A DNA stretch of 64,000 nucleotides from Marinibacterium sp. (lineage in GTDB: Bacteria > Pseudomonadota > Alphaproteobacteria > Rhodobacterales > Rhodobacteraceae), in NCBI GenBank assembly GCA_025800215.1, contig JAOXSC010000073.1, forward strand, positions 1 to 64,000. Direction: 5' to 3'. The notes under the pieces were generated by a model. It was not told where the DNA came from. It saw only the letters and a program-made list of their open reading frames with translations, and did no database searches. Each line of letters opens with the position of its first letter. Within the stretch, counting starts at the first letter, position 1. Below, one piece after another: positions 37,970-59,325 of the stretch. The position numbers and the translations under genes are program-made.

Positions 37970-37993
37970 TCCACCCGCCAGCGGGGATGCGCA

Positions 37994-38914: not shown

Positions 38915-38931
38915 CGGGTTGGTTTGGCTGC

Positions 38932-38987: not shown

Positions 38988-39018
38988 TGGTCGCGTTGCG
39001 CAAAGGCTGGGGGCCCAC

Positions 39019-40170: not shown

Positions 40171-40194
40171 GCCCCGAAGACGGGACCACCGCGA

Positions 40195-41232: not shown

Positions 41233-41251
41233 CTGTCTCTCCGTCTGTTGG

Positions 41252-42058: not shown

Positions 42059-42062
42059 CGCC

Positions 42063-42992
42063 TCAGCCCCCACCTTTGTCCGCGCGGGCCTGCTGGCGCG
42101 CCGACAGCATCAGGATGATCAGAACCAGGCTCAGCAGGATCATCGACGCCGCCGCCCCGAAGGGCCAGTTGCCCGCGTTGCCCTTGAACTGTTCTTCGAT
42201 CAGCGACCCGATCATGAAATTGCGCGCCCCGCCCAGCAGGTCGGGCGCCAGGAACGACCCCATCGACGGCACAAAGACCAGGATGCATCCCGCCACCACG
42301 CCGGGCCGCACCGATGGCAGCAGCACGCGGCGCAGCGTCACCCATTTTGACGCGTAAAGATCGGCCGCGGCCTCGGACAGGGCAAAGTTGTAGCGCTCGA
42401 CCGCCGCATAGATCGGCAGCACCATGAAGGGCAGATAGGAATAGAACAGCCCCAGCTGCACGGCGAGGTTGGTGTTCACGATATGCAGCGGGCTGTCGAT
42501 CAGCCCGATCCCGATCAGCGCATCATTCAGCGGCCCCTGATCGCGCAGAAGGAATTTCATCGACACGGTGCGGATCAGCAGGTTGACCCAATAGGGGATG
42601 GTGATCAGGAACACCCAGACCGGGCGCAGATTGGCCGGGCGCGTGGCGATGAAATAGGCGGTGGGAAACCCGATCAGCAGGCTGAACAGCGTCGCCACCC
42701 CCGCCTGCCAGATCGACCGCCAGAAGATCGTGACATAGGTCCATTCGATGCGCGGCGGGTCATCTCCGAACAGGCCCCGGTCGAAAAAGAACTGGTCATA
42801 GGCATCAAGGCTGAAATCCCAGATGACCCCGCCCCGGAATTCCTTGGTCAGGAAGGAATAGACCAGCATCATCAGCACCGGTGCCAGCACCAGAATGGAC
42901 AGCGTCACCCAGGCCGGCATCAGCAGCCAGGTGCGGGTGTCCTTGTAGGTGTCCGTGGTCGCGCTGCCACCGCTTGCCGCCCCCGCCGCCAT
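42063..42992 (-). CDS. potH: polyamine-type ABC transporter permease (PotH)
   Basis: A 309-residue permease with a first membrane segment at about 27-50 and the EAA-type loop [30 protein letters not shown]. It begins on the last base of the potG stop (TGATG overlap). Homologues form the heterodimeric channel with PotI. Confidence 0.87.
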
Positions 42993-44277: not shown

Positions 44278-45450
44278 ATGTCCCAGAAACTCGTGGTCAG
44301 GAATATCGGCCTGCTGCTGTCGGGCAAGATGGAAGATCCCATTCTGGACGCCGATTGCATCATCGCGCTGGATGGCAAGATCGCCGATTGGGGCGCCGAA
44401 GGCGATCTGGATTGCGACGATGCCCATGTGGTGGTCGATGCCAATGGTGTGACGCTGGCGCCCGGTCTGATCGACAGCCACGTGCACCCCGTGGTGGGCG
44501 ATTATACCCCGCGCCAGCAACAGCTTCACTGGATCGATTCCACCCTGCATGGCGGTGTCACCACGCTGATTTCTGCCGGCGAAGTGCACATGCCCGGCCG
44601 CCCCAAGGACATTGTCGGGCTCAAGGCGATGGCGATTGCCGCGCAGCGCTGGTATGAAAACTTCCGCCCCTCGGGGGTCAAGGTTCATGCCGGTGCGCCG
44701 GTGATCGAACATGGCATGATCGAAGAGGATTTCCGCGATCTGGCCGAGGCCGGTGTCACCCTGCTGGGCGAAGTTGGCCTGGGCACCGTCAAGGATGGCA
44801 AGACCGCCCGGCAGATGGTCGACTGGGCGCGCAAGTACGGGATCCAGTCCACCATCCATACCGGCGGCCCGTCGATCCCCGGATCGGGGCTGATCGACGC
44901 CGATATGGTGCTGGAAACCGGTACGGATGTGATCGGCCATATCAATGGCGGCCATTCCGCCCTGCCCGATGACCAGATCATGTGTCTTTGCGAAAGCTGC
45001 ACGGCGGGGCTCGAGATCGTGCATAACGGCAATGAACGCGCCGCCCTTCTGACGCTGAACACCGCGCGCGAGCTGAAACAGCTGGACCGAGTGATCCTGG
45101 GCACCGATGGCCCGGCGGGGTCGGGCGTGCAGCCGTTGGGGATCCTGCGGATGGTGGCGATGCTGTCATCGCTGGGCCATGTCCCGGCGGAAATCGCGTT
45201 CTGCTTTGCCAATGGCAACACCGCGCGCCAGCGCGAGCTGGACACCGGGCTGATCGAACGCGGCTATTGTGCGGATTTCGTGCTGATGGATCAGGCCCAG
45301 CATGCACCGGGCAAGACCATTCTGGAGTCAGTTCAGCTTGGCAATCTGCCCGGTGTCGGCATGACCATCATCGACGGTGTCGTGCGATCCGAACGCAGCC
45401 GCAACACACCGCCCGCCACCCGCCTGCCGCAGGTGGTCACGCCGGGCTGA
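44278..45450 (+). CDS. enamidase-like amidohydrolase (1,4,5,6-tetrahydro-6-oxonicotinate hydrolase candidate)
   Basis: A 390-residue cytoplasmic metal-dependent hydrolase of the amidohydrolase superfamily. The HxH metal motif is in DSHVHPVVGDY (about 62-72), the likely bridging Glu in GEVGLGTVKDG, His in STIHTGG and HINGGHS, and the late Asp in LGTDGPAG. LHGGVTTLISAGEVHMPGRPKD and the C-terminal RSRNTPPATR closely resemble the Eubacterium barkeri enamidase, which opens tetrahydro-6-oxonicotinate to 2-formylglutarate and ammonia. The ATG at 44278 follows GGAGG. The reductase and dehydrogenase for the two preceding steps lie in the minus-strand operon nearby. Assignment is by remembered similarity plus context. 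Confidence 0.78.
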   Translation: MSQKLVVRNIGLLLSGKMEDPILDADCIIALDGKIADWGAEGDLDCDDAHVVVDANGVTLAPGLIDSHVHPVVGDYTPRQQQLHWIDSTLHGGVTTLISAGEVHMPGRPKDIVGLKAMAIAAQRWYENFRPSGVKVHAGAPVIEHGMIEEDFRDLAEAGVTLLGEVGLGTVKDGKTARQMVDWARKYGIQSTIHTGGPSIPGSGLIDADMVLETGTDVIGHINGGHSALPDDQIMCLCESCTAGLEIVHNGNERAALLTLNTARELKQLDRVILGTDGPAGSGVQPLGILRMVAMLSSLGHVPAEIAFCFANGNTARQRELDTGLIERGYCADFVLMDQAQHAPGKTILESVQLGNLPGVGMTIIDGVVRSERSRNTPPATRLPQVVTPG

Positions 45451-45876
45451 TCAGCTGATCCGGCGCAGCAGACCAATCAGAGTGTCCTGTTCGCTTTCCG
45501 ACAGCGGGGCCAGCGTCTCGCGGGTGACACGGGCGCCGGCCTCTTTCATGCGGGCCAGCAGCTCGGCCCCTTCGGGCGACAGTGAAATCAGCGTGCGCCG
45601 CTTGTCGCTGGGATCGGGCGCGGTGACGGTCAGCCCCTTGTGTTTCAGACGATCCACCACACCCTTGATCGTGGCCACATCCATCGCGGCAAGACGGCCC
45701 AGCCGATTCTGCGAGCAGGTGCCCTGTTCGGCGATACGGACCAGCGCCGCAAATTGCGTGGCAGTCATACTATTTAGCGTATGCGCCTGAAAGATCGCCG
45801 TATGGCGTTGATTTGCGAGACGCAAAAGATACCCCACCTGATCATCAAGCGTGTACTCGGTTTCCGTTTCGGTCAT
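45451..45876 (-). CDS. MarR-family regulator of the N-heterocycle cluster
   Basis: A 141-residue winged-helix regulator: MTATQFAALVRIAEQG, then QNRLGRLAAMDVATIKGVVDRLKHKGLTVTAPDPSDKRRTLISLSPEGAELL, the full MarR DNA-binding core and wing. The ATG at 45876 follows AGGAG. Its stop codon abuts that of the enamidase gene (TGATCA). It lies 66 bases downstream of the livF-type gene, so it may be last in the long operon or have its own promoter. A ligand-released repressor of the nicotinate-type genes is the natural role (inference). Confidence 0.87.
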   Translation of the reverse strand: MTETETEYTLDDQVGYLLRLANQRHTAIFQAHTLNSMTATQFAALVRIAEQGTCSQNRLGRLAAMDVATIKGVVDRLKHKGLTVTAPDPSDKRRTLISLSPEGAELLARMKEAGARVTRETLAPLSESEQDTLIGLLRRIS

Positions 45877-45942
45877 GGCGGCTCCTGCCAATTTCGGTTC
45901 GCGCTATATACACGTTGACGCAAGGGCCACAACACCAACAGC

Positions 45943-46644
45943 TCAGACCGCCAAATATGTTCGTGATATATCAGGATTGGCGTCCAGATCGTCGAAACGA
46001 CCCTCGAAGCGTATTTGTCCCTTTTCAATAATATAGGTTCGGTCAGACACTAGGCGGGCGAAATGCAGATTCTGTTCGCTGATCAATACCGACAGGCCTT
46101 CGCGTTTCAGTTCGGCAATCACGCGGGCCATCTGTTCGACGATCACCGGCGCAATACCTTCGGACGGTTCATCCAATAGAATCAACCTTGGGTTGCCCAT
46201 CAGGGTGCGTGCAATGGTCAGCATCTGCTGTTCACCGCCCGACAGTTGCTTGCCCAGATTGCGCCGCCGTTCCCGCAGGTTCGGAAACAGCGCATAAAGA
46301 TGATCGAGCCCCCATTCGGGCGCATCCGGGCGTGGCGGGCGGCGGCCGACCTCAAGGTTCTCTTCCACCGTCAGTTCACCAAAAATGCGCCGGTCTTCAG
46401 GCACATAGCCCAGACCCTGACGGCAGATCGCATGCGACGCCCGGCCCAGAATGTCGCGCCCGTCATAGCGCACCGCCCCGCCGGTCTGCCGCAGCAGGCC
46501 CATAACCGACTTCATCGTGGTCGATTTGCCCGCCCCATTGCGCCCCATCAGGGCGACCACTTCGTTCTGACCCACGCGCATGGACACGCCATTCAGGATC
46601 TGCGCGCGCCCGTACCAGGCGGACAGGTCTTGGATCTCAAGCAT
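45943..46644 (-). CDS. Liv-type ABC transporter ATPase (LivF), second system
   Basis: A 233-residue ATPase with the normal Walker A GRNGAGKSTTMKSVMG, signature LSGGEQQMLTIARTL and Walker B LILLDEPSEGIAP. Start at ATG 46644, overlapping the LivG-type gene by 8 bases. Because it is embedded in the nicotinate-type operon, it probably energises import of the pyridine carboxylate rather than of amino acids. Confidence 0.87.
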   Translation of the reverse strand: MLEIQDLSAWYGRAQILNGVSMRVGQNEVVALMGRNGAGKSTTMKSVMGLLRQTGGAVRYDGRDILGRASHAICRQGLGYVPEDRRIFGELTVEENLEVGRRPPRPDAPEWGLDHLYALFPNLRERRRNLGKQLSGGEQQMLTIARTLMGNPRLILLDEPSEGIAPVIVEQMARVIAELKREGLSVLISEQNLHFARLVSDRTYIIEKGQIRFEGRFDDLDANPDISRTYLAV

Positions 46645-47410
46645 CGGATGCCTCCGTTTCGAACACGGCACCGCCGCCCAGATAGACCTCTTGCACCAGC
46701 GGGTTGGCGCGGATGTCGCTGCCGCTGCCTTCGGCGATGATCTCGCCCCGGTTCAGCACCAGGATCCGGTGTGCATGGGCAAAGACCACATCCATATCAT
46801 GTTCGGTAAAGACCACGCTGACACCGCCACGCGCCACGATCTCCGCCGTCAGCGCCATCAGCGCCACCCGTTCGGACGGCGCCATGCCCGCCGTGGGTTC
46901 ATCCATCAGCAGCAGCGCGGGTTCATGCGCCAGCGCGATCGCCAGTTCCAGCCGTTTGAGATCGCCATACGCCAGTTCCGAGCACGCGCGCCCGGCCTGA
47001 TCGCGCATCGACACCAGATCGAGCAGCGCCATCGCTTCGTCCACGTAAAGGCGGGTGGCGCGCGAAAACAGGTCGAACACCCGGCGGTGATGGGAAATCA
47101 GCGCCATCTGCACGTTTTCCACCACGGTCATCGACATAAAAGTCGATGTGATCTGGAATGTCCGGCCCACACCCATGCGCCAGATGTCGCGCGGCGGCTT
47201 GCCGATCAGCGACTGCCCGCCCAGCGAAACCGTGCCTTCATCGGGCGGAAGATAGCCGTTGAGCATGTTGAAACAGGTGGTCTTTCCCGCCCCGTTGGGA
47301 CCGATCAGCGCAAGGAATTCGCCCTCGGCCAGATCGAAATTCACATCCCTGACCGCGCGGATCCCGCCAAAGCTCTTGGACAGACCGCGCACCTGCAGAA
47401 CCGTGCTCAT
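46637..47410 (-). CDS. Liv-type ABC transporter ATPase (LivG), second system
   Basis: A 257-residue ATPase with Walker A GPNGAGKTTCFNMLNGYLPP, FQITSTFMSMTVVENV and Walker B LLLMDEPTAGMAPSE. It starts at ATG 47410 and overlaps the permease stop by 4 bases (ATGA). An in-frame alternative nine codons earlier lies inside the permease gene and is unlikely. Confidence 0.87.
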   Translation of the reverse strand: MSTVLQVRGLSKSFGGIRAVRDVNFDLAEGEFLALIGPNGAGKTTCFNMLNGYLPPDEGTVSLGGQSLIGKPPRDIWRMGVGRTFQITSTFMSMTVVENVQMALISHHRRVFDLFSRATRLYVDEAMALLDLVSMRDQAGRACSELAYGDLKRLELAIALAHEPALLLMDEPTAGMAPSERVALMALTAEIVARGGVSVVFTEHDMDVVFAHAHRILVLNRGEIIAEGSGSDIRANPLVQEVYLGGGAVFETEASDA

Positions 47411-49251
47411 GCTGCACCCCGCTTGATGATGCGCCACAGGCGCTGAATGCCGCCGGCAATCCCGTCAGGCGCCACCAGCACCACCACCAGGATGATCGTG
47501 CCGAAGATGAAGCGCCAGTAATCCAGCCGCGTCACCCAGTCTTCGATCAGCACAAAGGCCGACGCCCCCAGGATCGGCCCGGCCAGCGCGTGAATGCCGC
47601 CCAGAAGCACCATGATCAGCCCGTCAATGCTCAGCGCGATGCCAAGGCTGTCGGGAAAGACGCTGCCCTTGGAGAAGGCAAAGACCACCCCCGCCAGCCC
47701 GGCAAACGCACCTGCAATGACAAACCCCATCCATTGATGAAACCGTGTGTCCACGCCGATCGCTTCAGCGCGGGTCTGGCTGTCGCGCACCCCGCGCAGC
47801 ACATAGCCAAAGGGCGAATAGGCGATCCGCCGCATCACCCAGATGCCGCCCACGCACAACACGAAAGCGATGTAGAAGTAGACACGGTCCGAACTGGCCC
47901 AGCCGGGCGGCCAGACACCCAGAATGCCATCATCCCCGCCGGTGAAATCCTGCCACTGAAAAGTCACGCCCCACAGGATCTGCGCCGCCGCCAGCGTCAG
48001 CATCGCCAGATAGACACCCGACAGCCGCACGCTGAACCAGCCGAAAAACAGCGCCGCCAGCGCCGCGCATAGCGGGCCGAATGCCATCGCGGGCAGCATG
48101 CCAAAGCCCAGGAACTTGACCGCCAGCGCCGCCGCATAGGCCCCGACCCCGAAATAGGCAGCATGGCCGAAACTGACCATCCCCCCGATCCCCATCATGA
48201 AATGCAGCGACACCGCAAACAGCGTCGCCACCATCACATCAACCAGCAGCACGCTGGTGAATTCGGCGGTGAAGAGCGGGCTCAGCGCCAGCGCCATCAG
48301 CCCCGCGCACATCACCATCATCGCCTTGGGGCTCATCAGGGTCAGCGGCGCTTCGGGGGCTTCGGGGGCGCCCGCTTCGCTGCCCGGTTTGCCCAGGATC
48401 CCATAGGGCCGGAAGATCAGCACGATCGCCATGACGATAAAGGGCAGCACGATCGAGATCTGCGGAAAGATCAGGATGGCAAAGGAATTGAGCACCGAAA
48501 TCAGCACCGCCGCCACAAAGGCCCCCGACACGCTGCCCATGCCACCGATGACCACCACCACAAAGGCTTCGCCGATGATCGACAGATCCATCTGCAGCGA
48601 CACCGCCTCGCGCGGGATCTGCAGCGCCCCGCCCAGCCCCGCCAGCGCCGAGCCCAGGACAAAGGCCGCCGAAAACAGCCACGCCTGGTTGATGCCAAGC
48701 GCCCCGACCATCTCGCGGTCCTGGGTGGCGGCGCGCACCAGCACGCCCCAGCGGGTCTTGTGAAACAGCAGCCAGATCCCGGCCAGCACGGCCGGGCCAA
48801 TGGCGATCAGCGCCAGGTCATATTCCGGGATCGGCTCGCCCAGGATCCGCACCGCGCGATCCAGCCCCGGCGCGCGCGGGCCCAGCAGATCTTCGGCCCC
48901 CCAGATCGCAAGGGCCGCATCCTGCACGATCAGCACCACCCCGAAAGTGGCGACAAGCTGAAACAGTTCGGGCGCGTGATAGATGCGACGCAGGATCGTC
49001 AATTCCACAACCAGCCCGATCAGCCCCACCACCAGCGCGGCCAGCACCACCCCTCCCCAGAAGCCCAGCACGCTGCCACTCCAGAGGGTGACCAGCGTAT
49101 AGGCCAGATAAGCGCCCAGCATGTAGAACGACCCATGGGCAAAATTGACGATCCGCGTGACGCCAAAGATGATCGACAGACCGGATGCGATCAGAAACAG
49201 CGATGACGCGTTCGCAAGCCCGGTCAGCAGCTGCGCAAAGTAAAATCCCAT
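47407..49251 (-). CDS. fused LivH-LivM permease
   Basis: A 614-residue protein that joins both Liv permeases in one chain. The LivH half (about 1-290) has ASGLSIIFGVTRIVNFAHGSFYMLGAYLAY and VIGGMGSVSGAF. A short linker rich in Glu, Ala and Pro (GSEAGAPEAPEAPLTLMSP) follows at about 300-318. The LivM half (to 614) has FMMGIGGMVSFGHAAYFGVGAYAAALA and LIMVLLGGIHALAGPILGA. The ATG at 49251 starts MGFYFAQLLTGL, as LivH proteins do; the upstream open frame runs into the binding-protein gene. The fusion fixes a 1:1 pore and contrasts with the separate livH and livM at 4853-7092. Confidence 0.88.
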   Translation of the reverse strand: MGFYFAQLLTGLANASSLFLIASGLSIIFGVTRIVNFAHGSFYMLGAYLAYTLVTLWSGSVLGFWGGVVLAALVVGLIGLVVELTILRRIYHAPELFQLVATFGVVLIVQDAALAIWGAEDLLGPRAPGLDRAVRILGEPIPEYDLALIAIGPAVLAGIWLLFHKTRWGVLVRAATQDREMVGALGINQAWLFSAAFVLGSALAGLGGALQIPREAVSLQMDLSIIGEAFVVVVIGGMGSVSGAFVAAVLISVLNSFAILIFPQISIVLPFIVMAIVLIFRPYGILGKPGSEAGAPEAPEAPLTLMSPKAMMVMCAGLMALALSPLFTAEFTSVLLVDVMVATLFAVSLHFMMGIGGMVSFGHAAYFGVGAYAAALAVKFLGFGMLPAMAFGPLCAALAALFFGWFSVRLSGVYLAMLTLAAAQILWGVTFQWQDFTGGDDGILGVWPPGWASSDRVYFYIAFVLCVGGIWVMRRIAYSPFGYVLRGVRDSQTRAEAIGVDTRFHQWMGFVIAGAFAGLAGVVFAFSKGSVFPDSLGIALSIDGLIMVLLGGIHALAGPILGASAFVLIEDWVTRLDYWRFIFGTIILVVVLVAPDGIAGGIQRLWRIIKRGAA

Positions 49252-49318
49252 GGGGTGACTGTCCCTTTCCTGGCGGTGCGGAAATGGCCGGGCGGTGCGC
49301 CGCCCGGCCGGTGGCGGA

Positions 49319-50533
49319 TCACTCGGCCGGGCGCAGGGCGGCGGCGTCAGCTTCAGAGGGCAGGTAATCGGCCCCGTCCGCATAGGACCAGTCGACCATC
49401 GACGGCACCCCGTCGACCAGACCGGTGCGGCCCACATAGGCACCCATGGTCGACTGGTGATCGGCGGCGCGGAAGGTGAAGGGCCCGGTGGGGCTGCTGT
49501 CGACGTTCAGACCCTCCATCGCGGCCAGCAGGGCGTCGGTGTCGGTCGACCCGGCCTTTTCCAGCGCAGCGGCGATCGCCAGGATCGAATTGTAGCCGAC
49601 GATGGACCCGGTTTTCGGGATCTCGCCGAACCGCGCCTCATACGCCTCGGCAAAGGCGTTGTGGGCAGGCGTATCAATGTCGGCAGGCGGATAGCCGGTG
49701 ACAATCCAGCCTTCGGGCGTTTCATCGCCAAGCGGCAGCAGATATTCCGGCTCGCCCGTCAGCAACGACGCCACATCACGGTCTTCGAACAAAAAGCGCA
49801 GCGATCCTTCGCGCACGAATTTGGCCAGGTCACCGCCAAAGGTGACGTTGAAAATCGCATCCGGCTTTGACGCCTCAAGTGCGCGCACGGTGGATCCGGC
49901 ATCAATCTTGAAGACCGGCGGCCATTGTTCTTCGACAAATTCCACATCCGGGCGCAGGCGGGTCAGTTCGCTTTTGAACGCCTTCACCGCATCCTGACCA
50001 TAGGCATAGTTCGGCGCCACGGTGGCCCATTTCACCGCATCAAGCTTGGCCGCCTGTTCGGCCAGCATCGCGGCCTGCATATGTGTCGAAGGCCGCAGCC
50101 GGTAGGTGTATTTGTTCCCCTTGGACCACACGATTGCATCCGACAGCGGTTCGGATGCCAGGAACAGAACCTCTTTCTGTTTGGCAAAATCGGCCACGGC
50201 CAGCCCGATATTGGACAGGAAGGTGCCAAAGATCAGCACTGCGCCATCCTTCGACACCAGCTCTTCGGCGATGCGGATGGCGGTGGCGGGATCGCCGGTG
50301 TCGTCGCGGCTGATCACCTCGAGCGGGCGGCCATCAATGCCGCCGGCGGCGTTGATCTGTTCCACCGCCAGTTCCCAGCCCTTCTTGTAGGGTTCGGTAA
50401 AGGCCGGCAGGCGGGTATAGCTGTTGACCTCGCCCAGGATGATGGGATCGGCGGCCTGGCCCGCCTTGGGCATCAGGCCGATCATCGGCAAGGCCGCAAT
50501 CGCGCCCAGAACGGCGCGTCTGATAACTGTCAT
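49319..50533 (-). CDS. ABC transporter substrate-binding protein (Liv/Peripla_BP_6 type)
   Basis: A 404-residue periplasmic binding protein with a signal peptide (about 1-28, RRAVLGAIAALPMIGLMPKAGQAAD, with twin arginines at positions 5-6). The two-lobed type I fold has YKKGWELAVEQINAAGGIDGRPLEVISRDDTGDP and IVGYNSILAIAAALEKAGS. AGGAG precedes the ATG. It lies between the PF06684 genes and the fused permease in one minus-strand operon. The ligand is probably a pyridine carboxylate or related heterocycle, judged by context. Confidence 0.86.
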   Translation of the reverse strand: MTVIRRAVLGAIAALPMIGLMPKAGQAADPIILGEVNSYTRLPAFTEPYKKGWELAVEQINAAGGIDGRPLEVISRDDTGDPATAIRIAEELVSKDGAVLIFGTFLSNIGLAVADFAKQKEVLFLASEPLSDAIVWSKGNKYTYRLRPSTHMQAAMLAEQAAKLDAVKWATVAPNYAYGQDAVKAFKSELTRLRPDVEFVEEQWPPVFKIDAGSTVRALEASKPDAIFNVTFGGDLAKFVREGSLRFLFEDRDVASLLTGEPEYLLPLGDETPEGWIVTGYPPADIDTPAHNAFAEAYEARFGEIPKTGSIVGYNSILAIAAALEKAGSTDTDALLAAMEGLNVDSSPTGPFTFRAADHQSTMGAYVGRTGLVDGVPSMVDWSYADGADYLPSEADAAALRPAE

Positions 50534-50654
50534 GTTCTGTCTCCTGTTGGATAATGATCACGGCCAGTTCGCCCGGCTTCTCTGTCGTGCTTTGGTGCTC
50601 AAACCCTGCGGTGCAGCACATCAGACCCGTCTTGTGCGGGTTCTGACGCGCGCG

Positions 50655-51236
50655 TCAACGCAATCCGTCCTCTCCTTTTGCATCCTGGCTGGTCAATCCC
50701 CCGACCCGAGGCAACGGGCGTCCACTATCGGTGACAGCGACCGCCACCATGATCTCACGCGCGCGGGGGGCGTCGTTGAGCATCACCTCGATCCCGTCGA
50801 AATGGCTGCGCACATAGGCGGCATCCTTGTGCCCCAAAGGCACGTCCAGCACCTGCCCCGGACTGCCCATCTTTTTCGACGATGGCACCAGCGCCGCCCC
50901 TTTTTCGACCTCGTGGCGCAGCGGCGCGCCCAGTTTGGGATGCAGGATCGCGGCGGCATGTTCCAGTTCGCCCAGCTCGCCCACCATGGCCGATTTGCCA
51001 TAGCTTTCGGCCTGATCGGGCGTGATGCCAAGCGCGTCGACACAGCGCCGCCCCAAAAGCGCGCCCAGCTCGGCGCCGCTGTCCATCAGCGGGGTCAGAT
51101 CTTCGACATAGCGGCCGGCAAAGGGGTTTTCGATCACCGCCACGGCCACCGCCTTGCGGGTGGGCGGGGCGATGGTCTGCCCGGCCTCGATATGGGTTTC
51201 TTCCACCGTGACGGCGATCTTGCGGATCCGTGTCAT
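50655..51236 (-). CDS. PF06684 (DUF1185, 'amino acid synthesis') family protein, copy A
   Basis: A 193-residue soluble protein. Family hallmarks are ENPFAGRYVEDL (about 36-47), GELGELEHAAA, LVPSSKKMG (about 115-124), YVRSHFDGIEV and a C-terminal GLR. Structures of the family have a chorismate-mutase/RidA-like fold; the biochemical function is unproven despite the family name. It overlaps copy B by 4 bases (ATGA), and the 121-base gap to the binding-protein gene follows. Its position between importer and reductase genes suggests a role in the same pathway. Confidence 0.82.
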   Translation of the reverse strand: MTRIRKIAVTVEETHIEAGQTIAPPTRKAVAVAVIENPFAGRYVEDLTPLMDSGAELGALLGRRCVDALGITPDQAESYGKSAMVGELGELEHAAAILHPKLGAPLRHEVEKGAALVPSSKKMGSPGQVLDVPLGHKDAAYVRSHFDGIEVMLNDAPRAREIMVAVAVTDSGRPLPRVGGLTSQDAKGEDGLR

Positions 51237-51814
51237 CTCAGCCCGTCCTTTCCTGTGATCTGCGATGCCTCAAGCCCGCCCGAGCGCGAATGCACCCGTG
51301 GCCCCGTGGTCATGACAAGGGCAAAGGCCAGTTCATCGGCGCGCGGGGCATCGGTGCAGCCGACCTCCATACTGTCGAAATGGCTGCGCACATAGGAGGC
51401 GTTGATATGGGTGATCGGCACATCCAGCCGCGCGCCGACCCCGCCGACCTTTTTCGACGAAGGAACAATTGCATTGGCCTGCCCCAGAAGCTGGCGCATC
51501 GCATAGCCGCCCGGTGCATGCCAAAGCGCGCCATGCTCAAGCTCGCCCGCAGCACCCACCAGCGATCCCTTGCCATATCCTTCGATCTGATCCGCACCCC
51601 CAAGGGCCTCAATCAGCCGCTGCGCCAGCGCCAGCCCCAGCGGTTTGAGATCTTCCATGAAGGGCTGGATGTCGGGTTCATAGCGGCCCGCAAAGGGGTT
51701 GGCGATCACCGCCAGGATCGACGCCCGGCGCAGCGGGGTTGCGGCGACGGGGCCGCCTTCGTGAAAGATCTCTTCGACCGACAGCACGGTCTTGCGCAAT
51801 TGCAGCTCAGGCAT
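51233..51814 (-). CDS. PF06684 (DUF1185, 'amino acid synthesis') family protein, copy B
   Basis: A 193-residue paralogue of copy A with the same landmarks: ANPFAGRYEPDI, GELEHGA, IVPSSKKVG, YVRSHFDSMEV, CTDAPRADE and a terminal GLR. Apart from these motifs the two are clearly diverged, so the duplication is old and the two may form a hetero-oligomer. It starts 8 bases inside the UPF0280 gene, with AGGAG upstream. No catalytic residues are established for the family. Confidence 0.82.
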   Translation of the reverse strand: MPELQLRKTVLSVEEIFHEGGPVAATPLRRASILAVIANPFAGRYEPDIQPFMEDLKPLGLALAQRLIEALGGADQIEGYGKGSLVGAAGELEHGALWHAPGGYAMRQLLGQANAIVPSSKKVGGVGARLDVPITHINASYVRSHFDSMEVGCTDAPRADELAFALVMTTGPRVHSRSGGLEASQITGKDGLR

Positions 51815-52667
51815 GGGCGGGCTCCTGTTGAATGGGGGGCGGGGTCACGGGGGCATGATCGGTCTGGCAGGCCTGCCCGCGCAGCACCAGATAGGCGGCC
51901 CGGATCAGCCCGCGCGCTTGCATGTCACGGGCCACGCGCAGCCCGCGCTGCAACGCGCTCTGGCATTCGGCGGGATCAAGCGGGCCGACCCCGACAACCA
52001 CCGGGCGCGCGCCCAGATCACTGTCATCGCGGATGCTGTGCGCGGGCGCACGGGCGATGGCGGGATGTCCGGGCAGATCCACCGCATTGGCAATCAGCGT
52101 CGCGGCCACATCCGCCGCAGCCGCCCCGTGCGCCAGCACCGTGACGCTGTCGGCAATGCCGAAGCCAAGGCTCCGGCCCCCGCGCCCCGAGGTGGCGATG
52201 CCGCCGATGCCGTCGCCTGCGGTGATGCCGACCCGGCCCAGATCCGCCCCGTCCAGCCCGGCAACAGCAATGCGGAACCGCGCGCCGGGCGCCAGCCACA
52301 GCGCGATGTCGCCACCATTGTTCACAGATGCCCGGCGCAGATCGGCCGCATCGCGCATCGCCCCCAGAACCTCATCCGCGACGGCCCCCGCCACAGCCGC
52401 CATCGGCGTCACAAAGACACCCGCATGGCGCCGCACCGCATCATGCATGCGCCGCGCCACCGGGCCTGCGGGCGGCGGGGCGGCCGGATCCATGGGCGCC
52501 CTGAGCAGGGGCAGGTCTTCCACCAGCCCCGACAGGATCGTGTCAAACCGGGCCCGCGCCGCCGCATAGGCGGCCGTCCGGTCGCCATCTGCCGTCACCA
52601 GCAGATCAATCGGCCCGTGCTGCAGATGCAGCCGCCCATCCCCCAGTATGACAGCCCGAGGCCCCAT
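51807..52667 (-). CDS. UPF0280 family protein (ApbE-like fold)
   Basis: A 286-residue protein of the UPF0280 family, which is related in fold to the flavin transferase ApbE. Conserved glycine-rich parts are ASVNNGGDIALWL (about 155-168) and GDGIGGIATSGRGGRSLGFGIADSVTVLA, corresponding to the flavin- and metal-binding parts of ApbE. Its ATG follows the TAG stop of the 6-hydroxynicotinate-reductase gene with no gap, so it is translationally coupled to it. Because the characterised reductase carries covalently bound flavin, a flavinylation role is an attractive inference. There is no signal peptide, so it acts in the cytoplasm. Confidence 0.8.
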   Translation of the reverse strand: MGPRAVILGDGRLHLQHGPIDLLVTADGDRTAAYAAARARFDTILSGLVEDLPLLRAPMDPAAPPPAGPVARRMHDAVRRHAGVFVTPMAAVAGAVADEVLGAMRDAADLRRASVNNGGDIALWLAPGARFRIAVAGLDGADLGRVGITAGDGIGGIATSGRGGRSLGFGIADSVTVLAHGAAAADVAATLIANAVDLPGHPAIARAPAHSIRDDSDLGARPVVVGVGPLDPAECQSALQRGLRVARDMQARGLIRAAYLVLRGQACQTDHAPVTPPPIQQEPAHA

Positions 52668-54218
52668 CTATCCCTTGTCCCCCTTTGACCAGCGATAGTT
52701 GCTCGACGCCATCGGATCGGGCTGGCCCGCCAGCCCTTCGACGCGGCGGTCACGGTCGCTCAGAACCTCGGTCACCGGGCGGATTTCGCTCATATGCCCG
52801 CCCAAGGCGTCATAATCGCTGACCCGCATGGTGAATTCGATGGGCGCCACCAGCGCCGGGGTGGGGACATAGCCGAAGGATTCAGTGGGCATGTCCATCA
52901 CATCCACCATCACGGTGATGCCGCCACCCGGCCAGACATAGGCTTCGGCCCCGCCGCAGGACACATAGGTCAGCGCACCTTTCACCGATTTGGTCAGCCG
53001 CACGGGGTTTTCGGTGACCCCGGCCCGCAGGCTGCCCCCGGCCCCGCCCATGAACAGCACCGAACAGACCGACGGTTCACAGTTCTCCGCGATCAGATCG
53101 GCCGAGCGCCTCAGCTGGTCGGGAATGGCCGCAGGCTGCGGGATCAGATCCTCATCCAGCTGGAAATAGCCATATTGCTCGCCCGTGGTCGACACCATCA
53201 GCAGGCTCAGGCCCGCGCGCGCGTGCTTGGGGTTGAAGTCCCCCAGAATGGTCAGCGGATCGTGAATATCGGTGCCGCCCCAGCCGGTGCCGGGTTCGGC
53301 CACGTTGAAATAGCGCCCCGGCGTCGACCGGCGCCCGTTGATGCGGATCCCCGTCGGCGGCACATCCAGCAGCTTGCCCGCCTGATGTTCCGACAGCACG
53401 CCGGTGATGTGGTCATCGACCACGACGACCTCGTCGACATGGCCGACCCACTGGCGCGCAAACATGCCGATCGCGGCCGATCCACAGCCCACACGCATCA
53501 GCTTTTCTTCGACCCCGTTGATCACCGGCGCCCGGCCCGCCTGCACGATGATGGTGGTTTCGTGGCCCGGCTCCCCGATCACCATCTCGACCGCCGCGCG
53601 GTTGCACAGGCGCAACAGCGCATCGCAGGTCACCCGCCCTTCGGCCTTGGAACCCCCGGTCAGATGTTCTACCCCGCCCAGCGACAGCATCTTCGAGCCA
53701 TATTCGGATGTCATCACATGCCCGATCGGCTCGTCCGCGACGCGCACCACGTCGCGCTCGTGGCCGATATGGCGGTCGGTGTCGATCTTCACCTTGACGC
53801 CGCAATAGGAAAAGATGCCTTCGGTCACCACCGTGACCATATCCACATCATCGACCTGCTGGCTGACGATAAAGGGCGCGGGCTTGTAATCGGGATAGGT
53901 CGTCCCGGCCCCCACCGCCGTCACGAAGGGCCGCGTGCCCTGCACGATGTCCCCATCCCAGTCATCGGGCCCCGCGCTGTCCTTGAGAAACGGCACCAGC
54001 CGCGCGTCACCCCCATCCGCCCTGTCGATGCCGTCGATGATGGTCAGCGGATCCAGCCGCACCAGATCGCCGCCGTGATTGGCATAGCGATCGCAGGCCC
54101 CGATGCGGCCCTCGGCGATATAGCACATGACCGGGCAGGCATCGCAGCGGATCTTGTCGGGCCGGGACCGCCCGCCGCCCATGGCCGCATCGGCCCCTTT
54201 GTCCGGTGGCATGCTCAT
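52668..54218 (-). CDS. 6-hydroxynicotinate reductase-like iron-sulfur flavoprotein
   Basis: A 516-residue cytoplasmic enzyme. An N-terminal cysteine cluster CDACPVMC...GACDRY (Cys25, 28, 32 and 42) suggests one [4Fe-4S] centre. Other conserved-looking parts are TEGIFSYCGVKVKIDTDRHIG, YGSKMLSLGGVEHLTGGSK, VINGVEEKLMRVGCGSAAIG, and the glycine-rich FMGGAGGSLRAGVTENPVRLT. It matches the enzyme that reduces 6-hydroxynicotinate to 1,4,5,6-tetrahydro-6-oxonicotinate in E. barkeri. Its start overlaps the Mo-hydroxylase stop by 4 bases (ATGA). The electron donor is unclear because no ferredoxin gene is nearby. It is the diagnostic gene of this cluster. Confidence 0.82.
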   Translation of the reverse strand: MSMPPDKGADAAMGGGRSRPDKIRCDACPVMCYIAEGRIGACDRYANHGGDLVRLDPLTIIDGIDRADGGDARLVPFLKDSAGPDDWDGDIVQGTRPFVTAVGAGTTYPDYKPAPFIVSQQVDDVDMVTVVTEGIFSYCGVKVKIDTDRHIGHERDVVRVADEPIGHVMTSEYGSKMLSLGGVEHLTGGSKAEGRVTCDALLRLCNRAAVEMVIGEPGHETTIIVQAGRAPVINGVEEKLMRVGCGSAAIGMFARQWVGHVDEVVVVDDHITGVLSEHQAGKLLDVPPTGIRINGRRSTPGRYFNVAEPGTGWGGTDIHDPLTILGDFNPKHARAGLSLLMVSTTGEQYGYFQLDEDLIPQPAAIPDQLRRSADLIAENCEPSVCSVLFMGGAGGSLRAGVTENPVRLTKSVKGALTYVSCGGAEAYVWPGGGITVMVDVMDMPTESFGYVPTPALVAPIEFTMRVSDYDALGGHMSEIRPVTEVLSDRDRRVEGLAGQPDPMASSNYRWSKGDKG

Positions 54219-56968
54219 GAGGCGGCCTTTCGGATCGCCGCGCGCAGACGCGACGGGGTGGCCGGAATGCGCGTCAGCCGCACGCCGCAGGCGCGCCGGA
54301 TCGCGTTCAGCAATGCGGGCGCGGTGGGGATCAGCACATGTTCGCCCAGCCCCTTGGCGCCAAAGGGGCCGTGGGCGTCGGGCTCTTCTATGATCAGCGT
54401 TTCGATGGGCGGAATGTCCCCGATGGTTGGGATCAGATAATCATGCAGATTCTCGGTGCGCCCCGGCTGATAGTCCTCCATCAGGGCCATGCCAAGCCCC
54501 TGGGCAATGCCGCCCTGCACCTGGCCTTCGACCAGCAGCGGGTTGATCGCGCGCCCCACATCATGGGCCGCCACGAATCGCACCGCCCGCACCGTGCCAA
54601 GCCGCAGATCAACCTCGACCACGGCCAGATGCGCGGCATAGCCGAACTGGGCATAGGGCGCGCCCTGCCCGTTTTCATCAAGCGGCTGCGTGGGCGGATC
54701 ATAGCTTTGATCGGCGCACAGCACATAGCCCATGGCATCGGGCGCAAGCTGGCTCAGGTCAATGCGGTGCGTCTGCCCCCCATCAACCACATGGATCCAG
54801 CCATCGCCCAGACCGATCACCGCATCCGGGCCCGCATTGACCCGCGACAGGATCTGCGCGCGCAGATCCGCGCCCGCCAGCCGCGCGGCGTTGCCCGACA
54901 CATAGGTCTGGCGCGATGCCGATGTCTTGCCCGCATCCGGCGTCACATCGGTGTCGCCGCCGATCAGGTGCACCGCGCCCACCGGCACGCCAAGCGCGCT
55001 GGCAAAGATCTGGGCAATCACCGTATTGGCCCCCTGCCCGATATCCATCGCCCCCTGATGCAGCACCAGCCCGCCATCGGCGCGCAGCCCCGCCCGGATG
55101 GTCGACGGGTTGGGCAGGGATGTGTTGCCACAGCCATACCACCCCGCCGCAACCCCAACGCCGCGCGCCACCCCGTCGCTTTGCGCATTGAACGCCTCGG
55201 CGGCGGCACGTTCGCGGGCATAGGCCGGGCGCAGGGCGGTCAGGCAGGCCCCGATGCCCACCCCCTGATCAAAGACCTGACCGCAGACGGTGGGCACACC
55301 GTTGCGCAGCGCGTTGCGGATGCGAAACTCCAGCGGGTCGATGTCCAGCCCGTCGGCCAGATCGTCAAACAGGCTTTCCTGCGCGATCGCCGCCTGCGGC
55401 ACGCCAAACCCGCGGAACGCCCCCGATGGCGGGGCATGGGTGTGAATGCCGGTCGCTCCGGCCCGGTAGTCGGCCACGCGATAGGGCCCCGAGGCATGGA
55501 CCGGCACCCGCGCCGCCACGGTCGGCCCCCAGCTGGCATAGGCGCCGGTGTTGAACAGCCCGTCAAACTGCAGCCCGCTCAGGGTGCCATCGCGCATCGC
55601 CCCGATGCGCAGGCGCAGGTCGGACGGGTGGCGCTTGGTGGTCGACTGCATCGATTCCGCCCGCCCATAGGCCAGCCGCACCGGCCGCCCGGTCTTGATT
55701 GCGGCCAGCGCCAGATAGGGTTGCACCGACAGATCAAGCTTGGATCCGAACCCGCCCCCCGTTGCGGTGGGCAGGATGCGGATCCGGTCCTGCGGCCAGC
55801 CCAGGATCACGGCCAGCGCCTCAAGATCCATGACCGGCGCCTGGGTGCAGGCGTGGATCTCAAGCCGGTCATCGACCAGCCGGGCAAAGCCCGCCTCGGG
55901 CTCGATATAGGCGTGCTCGACAAAGCCCGACCGAAAGCGCCCTTCGACCACCAGATCGGCCCGCGCCAGCGCCGCATCGACATCACCGCATTGCACCTTG
56001 CCCCCACACATCACATTGCCTGCGCGGCCGGCATGCAGCCGTGGCGCATCCGGCGCCATCGCCCCGGCCATGTCCGGCGTGGACGGGCATTCGTGCCAGG
56101 TGACCGGGAAATCGGCAGGATCAAAGCCCGCAACGGCCTGCGGCGTGCCCACAATCGCGGCGACGGCCTCGCCGCGAAACCGGGTTTCGCCGGTCGCAAA
56201 AACAGGCTGGTCGACAAAATCGGGGATCACGCCAAAGAGGTTGCGGCCCGGCACGTCCGCAGCACTCAGCACCGCCACGATGCCCGGCTGCGCTGCGCGC
56301 CAGCCCTCAAGATCCCCCAGATCGAACCGGGCGCGCGGGTGGGGCGCGCGGATCAGCGCAATCTCCAGCGTGCCGGGCGGGGCGATGTCATCGCCGAATT
56401 GCTCGGTCCCGGTGACCTTCGCAGCCCCATCCAGCCGCCGGATCGCCGCCCCCACCGATCCCTGATCATCGCGGCGCGCCGGGCCGTCTGCCCCGCGCAC
56501 GGCGTCGATGATCTTGCGATAGCCGGTGCAGCGGCACAGCACGCCGCCCAGGGCATCCTGCACCTGCGCTTCGGACGGCTGAGGCGTGTCGCGCAGCAGA
56601 GCAACGGCGGCCACCATCATCCCCGGCGTGCAGATCCCGCATTGCGCGGCGCCGTGATCTTCGAACCGTTGGGCCAGCGCCTGCGCATCGGGGTCCTGCG
56701 CGACCAGACCGGCCAGCGTGTCGACCTGCCGGCCCGCCGCCTGATGCGCCGGCGTCAGACAGGCACAGACCGGATCGCCATCGACCAGCACCGTGCAGGC
56801 CCCGCAATCGCCCGCATTGCAGCCGATCTTGACGTCACGCGCGCCCAGCGTTTCGCGCAGCATTTCGGACAGGCGCATGCCCGGCCGGGCCCCGGCCCGC
56901 ACCTTCGCGCCGTTCAGCGTGAACGCCAGATCAGGATCCTGCAGTCGGGGGTCCATTGGTCTATCCAT
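54215..56968 (-). CDS. molybdenum hydroxylase, fused [2Fe-2S] and Mo-cofactor subunit (nicotinate dehydrogenase candidate)
   Basis: A 917-residue xanthine-dehydrogenase-family enzyme. Residues about 1-165 carry two [2Fe-2S] clusters: C50-x4-C55-x2-C58-x11-C70, then CGICTPGMM and CRCTGY. Residues about 180-917 form the molybdopterin domains, with TATGGGFGSKLDL, SGAFRGFGVPQAA, GKTSASRQTYVSGNA and the catalytic Glu in GAKGLGEHVLIP near the C-terminus (about residue 876). It should hydroxylate a ring carbon beside nitrogen. Given the downstream reductase, nicotinate to 6-hydroxynicotinate is the likely reaction. Of two ATGs (56968 and 56956) I take the first, which overlaps the FAD-subunit stop by 8 bases. 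The FeS and Mo parts are separate proteins in E. barkeri. Confidence 0.8.
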   Translation of the reverse strand: MDRPMDPRLQDPDLAFTLNGAKVRAGARPGMRLSEMLRETLGARDVKIGCNAGDCGACTVLVDGDPVCACLTPAHQAAGRQVDTLAGLVAQDPDAQALAQRFEDHGAAQCGICTPGMMVAAVALLRDTPQPSEAQVQDALGGVLCRCTGYRKIIDAVRGADGPARRDDQGSVGAAIRRLDGAAKVTGTEQFGDDIAPPGTLEIALIRAPHPRARFDLGDLEGWRAAQPGIVAVLSAADVPGRNLFGVIPDFVDQPVFATGETRFRGEAVAAIVGTPQAVAGFDPADFPVTWHECPSTPDMAGAMAPDAPRLHAGRAGNVMCGGKVQCGDVDAALARADLVVEGRFRSGFVEHAYIEPEAGFARLVDDRLEIHACTQAPVMDLEALAVILGWPQDRIRILPTATGGGFGSKLDLSVQPYLALAAIKTGRPVRLAYGRAESMQSTTKRHPSDLRLRIGAMRDGTLSGLQFDGLFNTGAYASWGPTVAARVPVHASGPYRVADYRAGATGIHTHAPPSGAFRGFGVPQAAIAQESLFDDLADGLDIDPLEFRIRNALRNGVPTVCGQVFDQGVGIGACLTALRPAYARERAAAEAFNAQSDGVARGVGVAAGWYGCGNTSLPNPSTIRAGLRADGGLVLHQGAMDIGQGANTVIAQIFASALGVPVGAVHLIGGDTDVTPDAGKTSASRQTYVSGNAARLAGADLRAQILSRVNAGPDAVIGLGDGWIHVVDGGQTHRIDLSQLAPDAMGYVLCADQSYDPPTQPLDENGQGAPYAQFGYAAHLAVVEVDLRLGTVRAVRFVAAHDVGRAINPLLVEGQVQGGIAQGLGMALMEDYQPGRTENLHDYLIPTIGDIPPIETLIIEEPDAHGPFGAKGLGEHVLIPTAPALLNAIRRACGVRLTRIPATPSRLRAAIRKAAS

Positions 56969-57794
56969 CAGCCTGCCCCGCCGCTCGGATCGCGCGGGCA
57001 CAGAGTTCGGCCACCGCCTCCATCCGGTATTCGGCCGACCCGCGCAGATCCGCAATCGGGCTCAGGCCCGACAGGTGATCGGGGTCCACCCGCACCGCAT
57101 CAGGGCGCGCGCCGATCGCCGCGCGCTCAAGCCCGCTCAACCGCTGCGCCACCGCCGAGCACGCCCCCACAGCCACCCGCGCACGGGCAATCCGCCGATC
57201 CGGCCCCAGCCCGATCAGCACCGCCACCATTGCAATCGAAATCACCATGTACCGCCGCGCGCCCAGCTTTTCAAAGCGCCCCACCGCGCCCGCAGGCGGG
57301 TCGGGCAGCAGCACGGCGGTCACCATCTCATCCGCAGCCAGCCCGGTCTCGCGCACCCCGGTGACAAACCGCTCAAGCGGCACCACCCGGCGCCCCCGCA
57401 GCGATCCGATCTCGACCCTGGCGTCCAGCGTCAAAAGCGGCGGCACCCCGTCGGCGGCGGGCGAGGCATTGCACAGATTGCCCCCCACCGTACCGCTGTT
57501 CTGGATCTGCAGGCTGCCCACCTCGCGCGCGGCGGCCTGCAGCCCGTGAAAGCCCGGCGGCAGATCGGCCTTCCACAGATCCGCCCAGCGGGTCGCGGCC
57601 CCGATGCGCCATTGCCCATCCGCACGGGTGATCCCGCGCAGCCCCGCCACCGTCGTCACATCCAGGATCGGCCCGGTCAGATCGCGCGGACCGGATGCGG
57701 CGAACACATCCGTGCCCCCCGCCACGATCCGCACCCCGCCCGAAGCAAGATGCGCATAGGCATCATCAAGTGTCCTGGGTGTTAGGTAGCGCAC
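56961..57794 (-). CDS. molybdenum hydroxylase FAD subunit
   Basis: A 277-residue FAD-binding subunit of the CoxM/XdhB type. It begins VRYLTPRTLDDAYAHLASGGVRIVAGGTDVF and contains SLQIQNSGTVGGNLCNASPAADGVPPLLTLDA, the two FAD-binding loops. I choose the GTG at 57794 because GGGAG stands 7 bases upstream and the family similarity begins there, although the frame is open 80 codons further. It is the first gene of the long minus-strand operon and passes electrons from the [2Fe-2S] clusters to an acceptor. Confidence 0.85.
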   Translation of the reverse strand: MRYLTPRTLDDAYAHLASGGVRIVAGGTDVFAASGPRDLTGPILDVTTVAGLRGITRADGQWRIGAATRWADLWKADLPPGFHGLQAAAREVGSLQIQNSGTVGGNLCNASPAADGVPPLLTLDARVEIGSLRGRRVVPLERFVTGVRETGLAADEMVTAVLLPDPPAGAVGRFEKLGARRYMVISIAMVAVLIGLGPDRRIARARVAVGACSAVAQRLSGLERAAIGARPDAVRVDPDHLSGLSPIADLRGSAEYRMEAVAELCARAIRAAGQADG

Positions 57795-57822: not shown

Positions 57823-57863
57823 TTCGTATACAAATGGTAGAGCCGGCCCCGAACACCTGTCAA
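57823..57863 (-). promoter_or_regulatory. putative promoter and operator of the N-heterocycle operon
   Basis: On the minus strand TTGACA (complement of 57858-57863) is followed 18 bases later by TACCAT. Immediately downstream lies a dyad-like TTGTTCGTATACAA (plus-strand reading, about 57820-57833). GTTCGTATACAAATG here matches GTTAGCATACAAATG (44242-44256) in front of the enamidase gene in 13 of 15 bases. Both could be MarR operators. Confidence 0.42.
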
Positions 57864-57981
57864 TCTTTTGTTGCCCGCAACCACGTCTGCCGAACCGTCG
57901 CGCCCAATGGCCGGGCTTGACCGAACGCCGGGCGCAGCAAAATACTCGGACCAACCCCGCTGGCATCGAAGGGAGGCTCTG

Positions 57982-59325
57982 ATGACATCCACACCCAAAG
58001 GCATGACCGTGGCCCCGGACGGCCCCGGCACCACGCCCGGCTACATGTCCGGCTTTGGCAATGACTTTGAAACCGAAGCGCTGCCCGGCGCCCTGCCCAT
58101 CGGCCGCAACAGCCCGCAGCGCTGCAGCTACGGGCTTTATGCCGAACAGCTGTCGGGCACGGCATTCACCGCGCCCAGCCATCACAACAACCGCACCTGG
58201 TGCTATCGCATCCGGCCATCGGTCAAGCATTCGCACCGCTATACGCGGATCGACGTGCCCCATTGGAAAACCGCACCGCATGTGCAGGCTGACGTGACCT
58301 CGCTGGGTCAGTACCGCTGGGATCCGCTGCCGCTGCGCGACGGGCTGACCTGGATCACCGGCATGCACAGCATGACCACCGCCGGAGACGTCAACACCCA
58401 GATCGGCATGGCCAGCCACATCTATCTGGTCACCCAGAGCATGCAGGATCAGTATTTCTATTCCGCCGACAGCGAATTGCTCGTGGTGCCGCAACAGGGC
58501 CGCCTGCGCTTTTGCACCGAGCTGGGCATTCTCGACATCGGCCCGAAAGAAATCGCCATCCTGCCGCGCGGGCTGCTCTACCGGGTCGAGCTGCTCGACG
58601 ATGCCGCGCGCGGCTTTGTCTGCGAAAACTACGGCCAGGGGTTCGAGCTGCCCGCGCGCGGGCCCATCGGCGCCAATTGCATGGCCAATCCGCGCGACTT
58701 CAAGACCCCCGTCGCCGCCTTTGAAGACCGCGACACGCCATCATCCGTGATCATCAAATGGTGTGGCCAGTTCCATGAAACCCGGATCGGCCAGTCACCG
58801 CTGGATGTGGTCGCCTGGCATGGCAACTACGCCCCGGTGAAATATGACCTGCGCCATTACTGCCCGGTGGGGGCGGTGCTGTTCGACCATCCCGACCCGT
58901 CGATCTTTACCGTGCTCACCGCGCCGTCGGGGCAGCCCGGCACCGCCAATATCGACTTTGTGCTGTTCCGCGAACGCTGGATGGTGGCCGAAGACACGTT
59001 CCGCCCGCCCTGGTATCACAAGAACATCATGTCCGAGCTGATGGGCAACATCTATGGCGAATATGATGCCAAGCCGCAGGGCTTTGTGCCGGGGGGGCTG
59101 TCGCTGCATAACATGATGCTGCCGCACGGGCCCGACCGTAGCGCCTTTGACAAGGCATCGCGCGCCAATCTGGGGCCGGACAAGCTTGATCACACCATGT
59201 CCTTCATGTTCGAAACGCGCTTTCCCCAGCACCTGACGCGCTTTGCCGCGCAGGACGCACCGCTGCAGGATGACTATATCGACTGCTGGGCCGACATCGA
59301 AAAGCGCTTTGACGGAACCCCATAG
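57982..59325 (+). CDS. hmgA: homogentisate 1,2-dioxygenase
   Basis: A 447-residue non-heme iron dioxygenase that opens homogentisate to maleylacetoacetate in tyrosine/phenylalanine breakdown. It starts [26 protein letters not shown] like other HmgA proteins. The iron ligands are recognisable in [15 protein letters not shown] (His and Glu) and LPHGPD (His). GGAGG precedes the ATG. Maleylacetoacetate isomerase, fumarylacetoacetase and HppD genes are absent from the window, so this is an isolated copy. It is divergent from the N-heterocycle operon and shares a 187-base promoter region with it, which also contains a small dyad GTTGCCCGCAAC (57870-57881). Confidence 0.93.

Follow-up and report, generated by a model that had tools for sequence, protein, structure and literature searches.

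Among the common compounds of plants and of the sea are nicotinate and trigonelline, its methyl derivative. A 2006 study of Eubacterium barkeri is said to have pointed to the same type of gene cluster, for reductive nicotinate breakdown, in Azorhizobium caulinodans and the Bradyrhizobiaceae. Another report describes a conserved cluster of these bacteria, in which the first three steps are joined by an ATP-binding cassette (ABC) transporter and two functionally uncharacterised proteins, and lets the Azorhizobium-type route run via glutarate (PMC3511419). Here, we describe a cluster at positions 44278-57794 of a 64,000-nucleotide stretch of DNA from Marinibacterium sp. (contig JAOXSC010000073.1, 91,703 bp in total), called the window in the following. 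It very probably represents an inducible operon by which nicotinate is taken up and broken down reductively. The cluster itself is of the published kind and not new, and the novelty for aerobes claimed in a preliminary description of the window is not supported, given the A. caulinodans and Bradyrhizobiaceae clusters described in PMC3511419. What appears to be new is the exact co-occurrence of the 6-hydroxynicotinate reductase family protein (Hnr) with a protein of the UPF0280/COG2122 family, and the ApbE/FmnB fold of the latter.

The preliminary description had named three pathway enzymes, a Liv-type importer and a MarR regulator, all of which are present, the enzymes at the proposed positions: an enamidase homologue of 390 amino acids (44278-45450, plus strand), Hnr (52668-54218, minus strand) and a molybdenum hydroxylase (54215-57794, minus strand), with importer and regulator recognised by Pfam. 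Genes for UPF0280 (51807-52667) and two DUF1185 proteins (50655-51814), all on the minus strand, had gone unnamed. The minus-strand order reads from the flavin adenine dinucleotide (FAD) subunit of the hydroxylase (starting at 57794) through its iron-sulfur/molybdenum subunit, Hnr, UPF0280, DUF1185 protein 2, DUF1185 protein 1, the solute-binding protein, LivHM, LivG and LivF to MarR (ending at 45451). From the FAD subunit to DUF1185 protein 1 the genes are closely packed, with several overlaps of a few bases, while the enamidase and MarR genes lie tail to tail with their ends one base apart. A chance arrangement is excluded, since the block recurs in relatives.

Hnr is encoded by 68 of the 385 sampled genomes of the class to which the window belongs (presumably the Alphaproteobacteria, judging by named relatives), the window's own genome included, and was found in 26 of 72,556 plasmid records and in at least 583 stretches of the genome collection. 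With 68 class genomes the route is widespread, and its reductase is seldom named in the open-access literature. For comparison, 161 loci were mapped, namely 80 of the collection stretches, 67 from the class sample and 14 of 27 additional genomes from a phylum sample; three near-copy pairs among them leave 158 groups. Many stretches stop at contig ends, such that true absences are fewer than those counted below.

UPF0280 is the constant companion of Hnr. The 68 genomes of the class sample that have Hnr are precisely those that have UPF0280, and the two proteins likewise coincide in 32 of 398 genomes of the phylum sample, with no genome having only one of them; three of the 32 lie outside the class. 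Across both samples this makes 95 distinct genomes, i.e. every genome with Hnr. Weak fragments were left out of these counts: for Hnr, G053 (34 residues) in the class sample and G694 in the phylum sample; for UPF0280, G051 in the class sample and, in the phylum sample, G649 and G719, which are both ApbE. Within the mapped stretches, UPF0280 is present in 155 of 161 loci, and in 147 of these 155 it lies directly downstream of Hnr on the same strand. The genomes of the six remaining loci (L078, L082, L093, L142, L175 and L176) have a match elsewhere. Of these off-locus matches, those of L078 and L082 are clear, that of L093 is no more than 26 residues long and lies at the start of a contig (E = 5.4e-5), and those of L175 and L176 are pieces split over two contigs.

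The window's UPF0280 protein matches NF003322 with 359.7 bits (cut-off 290). Its AlphaFold2 model has a predicted local distance difference test score (pLDDT) of 94.8 and is closest to DVU1097 (2O34; Z = 20.2, 23% identity), followed by the flavin transferases ApbE, Ftp and FmnB with Z = 14-17 over 201-215 residues at 11-20% identity (7ESC with E = 2.2e-5). The next unrelated fold reaches Z = 7.4. All 48 UPF0280 sequences compared have Asp186 and Thr190, which hhalign places opposite the ADAMAT motif of true ApbE (probability 67, E = 5e-5, 71 columns). By eye, GG(D/E) and TSG motifs are seen in both families, although hhalign does not pair TSG with TSG. In the genome search, UPF0280 also gave weak matches to two true ApbE proteins.

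These observations suggest that UPF0280 attaches the flavin of Hnr: the pairing is exact, the fold is that of flavin transferases, Asp186 and Thr190 are retained, and 38 of the 68 Hnr genomes have no ApbE match as an alternative source of a covalent flavin. Moreover, a covalently bound flavin has reportedly been found in E. barkeri Hnr. We regard flavin attachment as the simplest form of such a role, and put it forward tentatively. That UPF0280 serves as a dedicated cofactor maturase of Hnr of some kind is proposed with more confidence.

Several points weigh against a flavinyltransferase. UPF0280 has no match to the Pfam family ApbE (PF02424) or to any other family at E = 0.1, and a histidine-containing loop of two ApbE proteins, whose histidine we take to be catalytic, is left without an aligned counterpart by hhalign; His14 (44 of 48) or His17 (40 of 48) of UPF0280 might replace it. 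Searched against the PDB with phmmer, UPF0280 finds 2O34 alone, and its profile adds four unrelated chains (E = 0.07-1.7) and no ApbE. ApbE is also more frequent in genomes with Hnr (30 of 68) than in the others (72 of 317; odds ratio 2.7, p = 7e-4). Finally, a published report doubts flavin binding (PMC5764234).

The same source, as far as it is accessible, offers a different function: in Desulfovibrio, COG2122 is needed together with DUF39 and a NIL/ferredoxin protein, and a persulfide role was suggested (PMC5764234). UPF0280 could in the same way deliver sulfur to Hnr or assist its iron-sulfur maturation rather than transfer a flavin, which is a possibility to be taken seriously, if held with reserve. 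The seven invariant cysteines of Hnr (Cys25, Cys28, Cys32, Cys42, Cys139, Cys245 and Cys380 across 65 sequences) are in line with it, and so is the unmatched histidine loop. On the other hand, nothing but flavin transferases and DVU1097 rises above the noise in the fold search, and the invariant pair aligned with ADAMAT, the lack of ApbE in most Hnr genomes and the flavin reported for E. barkeri all speak for flavin transfer. The COG2122 protein of homocysteine synthesis in D. vulgaris and methanogens, according to the available text, is of the same family as UPF0280 (2O34), but its partners are DUF39 and NIL/ferredoxin (PMC5764234), whereas the partner in the window is Hnr. A kinship of Hnr with DUF39/HcyBio was looked for in 65 Hnr members and gave no match up to E = 10, a search in which HMMER filters drop most weak matches.

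Combining both lines, UPF0280/COG2122 might form a new branch of the ApbE superfamily, sharing with ApbE/FmnB the fold and the ADxxAT motif, and differing in the missing Pfam hit and the unmatched histidine loop. Its members would act as client-specific flavinyltransferases or maturases, one subfamily for Hnr and one for DUF39, and in many bacteria a caprolactamase-like hydrolase would replace the enamidase. We hold this extended scheme to be conceivable and somewhat speculative. In the open-access literature searched, neither UPF0280 by name nor 6-hydroxynicotinate together with "covalently bound flavin" was met with. The exact pairing with Hnr provides a testable role for this uncharacterised family, on which homocysteine synthesis also depends in other microbes.

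Of the three pathway enzymes, the enamidase has a full-length PDB match, the hydroxylase has mixed best hits and Hnr has no PDB match. The window's Hnr has no Pfam match of its own either. Its name is carried by 17 of the 26 matching plasmid records, the other records being hypothetical or unannotated there. It counts against the assignment that the comparison with E. barkeri Hnr rests on a published value of 42% for strain SG-6C, taken from the accessible part of PMC3511419. The AlphaFold2 model of Hnr (pLDDT 80, predicted TM-score 0.76) found no convincing whole-chain match with Foldseek (best E = 0.039, probability 0.02). VIA-align gave a best Z of 5.1 to the barrel of the T-protein over 67 residues. 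Residues 139-230, approximately, resemble the C-terminal barrel of the glycine-cleavage T-protein in this comparison, and the Pfam family GCV_T_C matches weakly in 58 of 65 Hnr members (best E = 4e-5) and not in the window's Hnr. As judged from a model in which the domains were not folded apart, Hnr would have no recognised overall fold; a new fold is not claimed. With electrons probably coming from ferredoxin, as relatives suggest, it would reduce 6-hydroxynicotinate to 1,4,5,6-tetrahydro-6-oxonicotinate.

The hydroxylase, which would convert nicotinate to 6-hydroxynicotinate by means of flavin, iron-sulfur and molybdenum cofactors, consists of a fused [2Fe-2S] and molybdopterin subunit (54215-56968, minus strand, start inferred; Fer2, Fer2_2, Ald_Xan_dh_C, MoCoBD_1 and MoCoBD_2) and a FAD subunit (56961-57794, minus strand; FAD_binding_5 and CO_deh_flav_C). 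The fused subunit matches chains A, B and D of 3HRD, the nicotinate dehydrogenase of E. barkeri. For the molybdenum part, chains A (255 bits) and B (215 bits) lead all PDB hits once the bits are divided by the number of aligned residues. Other matches argue against a nicotinate dehydrogenase: the largest single-chain match of the fused subunit is an aldehyde oxidoreductase (385 bits), the iron-sulfur part prefers 4-hydroxybenzoyl-CoA reductase (129 bits) and quinoline 2-oxidoreductase (125) to chain D of 3HRD (120), and the FAD subunit prefers 6-hydroxypseudooxynicotine dehydrogenase (89 bits) to nicotinate dehydrogenase (80).

Compared with the E. barkeri fermentation, the window shares a full-length enamidase homologue and related hydroxylase subunits, the latter two in number instead of the four given for E. 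barkeri in the available part of PMC10331938. The Azorhizobium/Bradyrhizobiaceae cluster, known to us by description, agrees in the first three steps and the ABC importer, and its two unknown proteins would fit UPF0280 and DUF1185. Two of our loci, L165 and L218, match that description, both with a NicB-like hydroxylase, whereas the window has the fused subunit without CxxCH plus the FAD subunit, and two copies of DUF1185. The label NicB-like refers to size, domains and three CxxCH motifs in one full-length member (CP099606, 1267 amino acids).

The enamidase homologue and the E. barkeri enzyme (2VUN) align over their full lengths (354.6 bits, E = 5.6e-105, 383 residues), the next-best PDB match reaching 27 bits. 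The HxH, Glu, His, His and Asp positions, presumably the metal ligands, are identical in this alignment. The protein would be expected to open the ring of 1,4,5,6-tetrahydro-6-oxonicotinate by hydrolysis, yielding 2-formylglutarate and ammonia.

In other loci, a different ring-opener takes this place. An enamidase was found in 68 and HyuA in 33 of the 161 loci, with no locus sharing both (Fisher p = 8e-10, uncorrected for relatedness); counted over the 158 groups, the numbers are 66, 33 and none. HyuA loci (e.g. L085, L134 and L177) often have HyuB beside Hnr. The best matches of HyuA and HyuB are caprolactamase subunits, although below the cut-offs of those families, and the enzyme is ATP-dependent by family. 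The simplest reading would be a caprolactamase-like, ATP-dependent lactam hydrolase that replaces the enamidase on the same intermediate. On a tree of 65 Hnr sequences, the enamidase and HyuA labels require five changes each compared with approximately 13 in shuffles, and well-supported branches force only two of the opener label changes. It counts against the nicotinate operon as a whole that 60 of the 161 stretches have neither enamidase nor HyuA. Hydroxylases and openers occur in several combinations: the fused type occurs with enamidase in 61 loci, with HyuA in 18 and with neither in 55, the NicB-like type with enamidase in 5 and with HyuA in 6, and loci with neither hydroxylase have an enamidase in 2, HyuA in 9 and no opener in 5 cases. 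One Hnr core with interchangeable hydroxylases and openers suggests one common intermediate. The swap predicts a pathway variant which, like the constant UPF0280 partner and the ferredoxin and Rieske-demethylase modules reported below, we did not meet in the open-access literature, where HyuAB, the ferredoxin modules and the Rieske oxygenase were not searched by name.

The importer, which would take up nicotinate, comprises a LivF-type ABC ATPase (45943-46644; ABC_tran, E = 8.6e-32), a LivG-type ABC ATPase (46637-47410; ABC_tran and BCA_ABC_TP_C), a fused LivH-LivM permease (47407-49251; two BPD_transp_2 stretches) and a solute-binding protein (49319-50533; Peripla_BP_6), all on the minus strand and with inferred starts for the first three. 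The solute-binding protein matches 3I45 with 511 bits (E = 1.6e-152), far ahead of the next match at 92 bits. The 3I45 structure reportedly holds a nicotinic acid ligand, a point on which no conclusion is based here.

The MarR regulator (45451-45876, minus strand, start inferred) is BpsR-like and a probable sensor of 6-hydroxynicotinate, which probably also releases it as a repressor. In the accessible text of PMC6837509, the ligands of 6-hydroxynicotinate in BpsR of Bordetella are Tyr15, His23, Arg26 and His32. The window's protein shares the family and keeps Tyr15, Arg26 and His32, with Tyr at position 23, i.e. three of the four. Both this exchange and the closer relation to 2NNN (141 bits) than to BpsR (6PCP/6PCO, 95 bits) weaken the comparison. 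Of the best MarR matches of 112 of the 161 loci (at least 40% identity), 110 retain the Tyr, 111 the Arg and 91 His32, and position 23 is Phe in 57, Tyr in 39 and His in 14.

Since the ligand residues are largely kept, the operon is likely to be induced by 6-hydroxynicotinate and to act on nicotinate. Together with the observation that one Hnr core is combined with two hydroxylase types and two ring-openers, this makes nicotinate the likeliest substrate as far as sequences can tell. The preliminary description had allowed for a different N-heterocycle, which is possible but less likely. Such an operon would serve another pyridine carboxylate or a substituted nicotinate, for instance 6-chloronicotinate, a picolinate or a nicotinate methylated at the nitrogen, and Hnr and enamidase would then convert the analogous intermediates. 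We consider this improbable. It draws on the fact that importers and entry enzymes differ among relatives, the window's importer group being a minority (7 of 161 loci), and that the specificity of a molybdenum hydroxylase is not readable from its sequence, the more so as the best PDB matches of its subunits are mixed. Further, a Rieske oxygenase with a VanA_C demethylase domain occurs in 27 of the 161 loci, that is at L158 (13378-14520) and in 26 others with more than 55% identity to the L158 protein; 22 of the 27 have a LivK homologue in the stretch, 18 an enamidase, 9 neither opener and none HyuA. In these relatives, the oxygenase could demethylate trigonelline to nicotinate. Nicotinate itself is favoured by the full-length match to the E. 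barkeri enamidase, by the retained BpsR-type residues and by the interchangeable enzymes around one core. The assignment to the reductive nicotinate pathway made in the preliminary description is supported by the full-length enamidase homologue, the BpsR-like regulator and the presence of a hydroxylase.

Both DUF1185 proteins (protein 1, 50655-51236; protein 2, 51233-51814; minus strand) match the AA_synth family PF06684 (E = 6.6e-72 and 7.8e-72), and protein 2 matches 3BYQ (E = 9.3e-63). The family is present in 132 of 161 loci, in all 68 enamidase loci and in 22 of 33 HyuA loci. According to PMC2954203, SPO0826 and BB2672 share a chorismate-mutase-like fold, and genes of a branched-chain amino acid type transporter lie beside SPO0826. 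This neighbourhood would fit the same cluster in Ruegeria pomeroyi. The homologue TgnF, according to work cited by PMC7913881, stimulates a succinate-semialdehyde dehydrogenase of the trigonelline pathway. By analogy, DUF1185 may act at the aldehyde stage, on formylglutarate or glutarate semialdehyde. In a more specific version it would catalyse or speed the decarboxylation or tautomerisation of 2-formylglutarate or glutarate semialdehyde, and have no part in amino acid synthesis as the Pfam name implies. Its frequency in the loci and the precedent of TgnF support this version, which we nevertheless regard as rather doubtful, given that the homologue HcdD showed no such effect in the same partially available report (PMC7913881) and that 29 of the 161 stretches are without DUF1185.

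Regarding the electron supply, 31 of the 161 loci carry a ferredoxin-NADP reductase and six a 2-oxoacid:ferredoxin oxidoreductase (L123, L134, L140, L149, L154 and L169; five of the six with an adrenodoxin-reductase-like gene), and never both. The window's cluster has neither of the two, and its lack of a ferredoxin reductase is a point against a ferredoxin-fed Hnr. Two partial homologues of electron-supply genes (62 and 70% identity) are located at contig ends of the window's genome.

In Azorhizobium, the ring-opening product is decarboxylated and oxidised to glutarate, which is then converted to glutaryl-CoA. In the window's genome, these steps would fall to genes outside the cluster. The lower half, which the preliminary description had held to be missing and either new or encoded elsewhere, has candidates for two later steps elsewhere in the genome, judging by sequence similarity: a succinate-glutarate CoA-transferase-like (CaiB) gene (581 bits, below the cut-off of 750) and a gene for an acyl-CoA dehydrogenase that shares 66% identity with a candidate glutaryl-CoA dehydrogenase. 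This reference candidate itself scores below its NCBIfam cut-offs and slightly better with a FadE model. No gene was assigned to decarboxylation or semialdehyde oxidation; an aldehyde dehydrogenase in the window (36473-37969) is closest to PuuC, below its cut-off.

The extrachromosomal location suggested in the preliminary description is plausible, as Rep_3 and ParA-like genes at 59.4-62.5 kb are followed by a ParB-like gene, the block being approximately 78% identical to Paracoccus plasmids. The ParB-like gene matches Pfam ParB_N below the cut-off only, and matching plasmids name it ParB N-terminal. No overlap between the contig ends was found that would indicate circularity. Such a location is not special, however, as relatives lie on plasmids and also on whole-chromosome contigs (e.g. 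G197 and G361). The many oxygenases of the same description turned out to be overstated: the Pfam scan, which took in 50 of the window's reading frames, found one Rieske oxygenase and homogentisate dioxygenase (HgmA). The HgmA open reading frame (57868-59325, plus strand) lies divergently upstream of the operon.

Ahead of the operon, a promoter-like TTGACA-18-TACCAT is seen at 57834-57863 (minus strand). Two promoter-like sites were counted in 501 bases, compared with 0.1 in shuffles. An imperfect palindrome near 57826-57840, noticed by eye, may be a MarR operator. Rfam reported nothing in the window at gathering score, and a tRNA-Gly(gcc) called by ARAGORN (46697-46772, plus strand) was rejected as a false positive, since it lies inside livG on the opposite strand and Rfam is silent there. 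Further away, 23854-27855 (plus strand) codes for DabA, a transporter of inorganic carbon, together with a proton-antiporter-like partner. The region 30498-44083 combines an aminotransferase, the Rieske oxygenase, the PuuC-like aldehyde dehydrogenase, an M20 peptidase and an ABC importer whose ATPase has a TOBE domain, and looks like a polyamine or amino-compound island.

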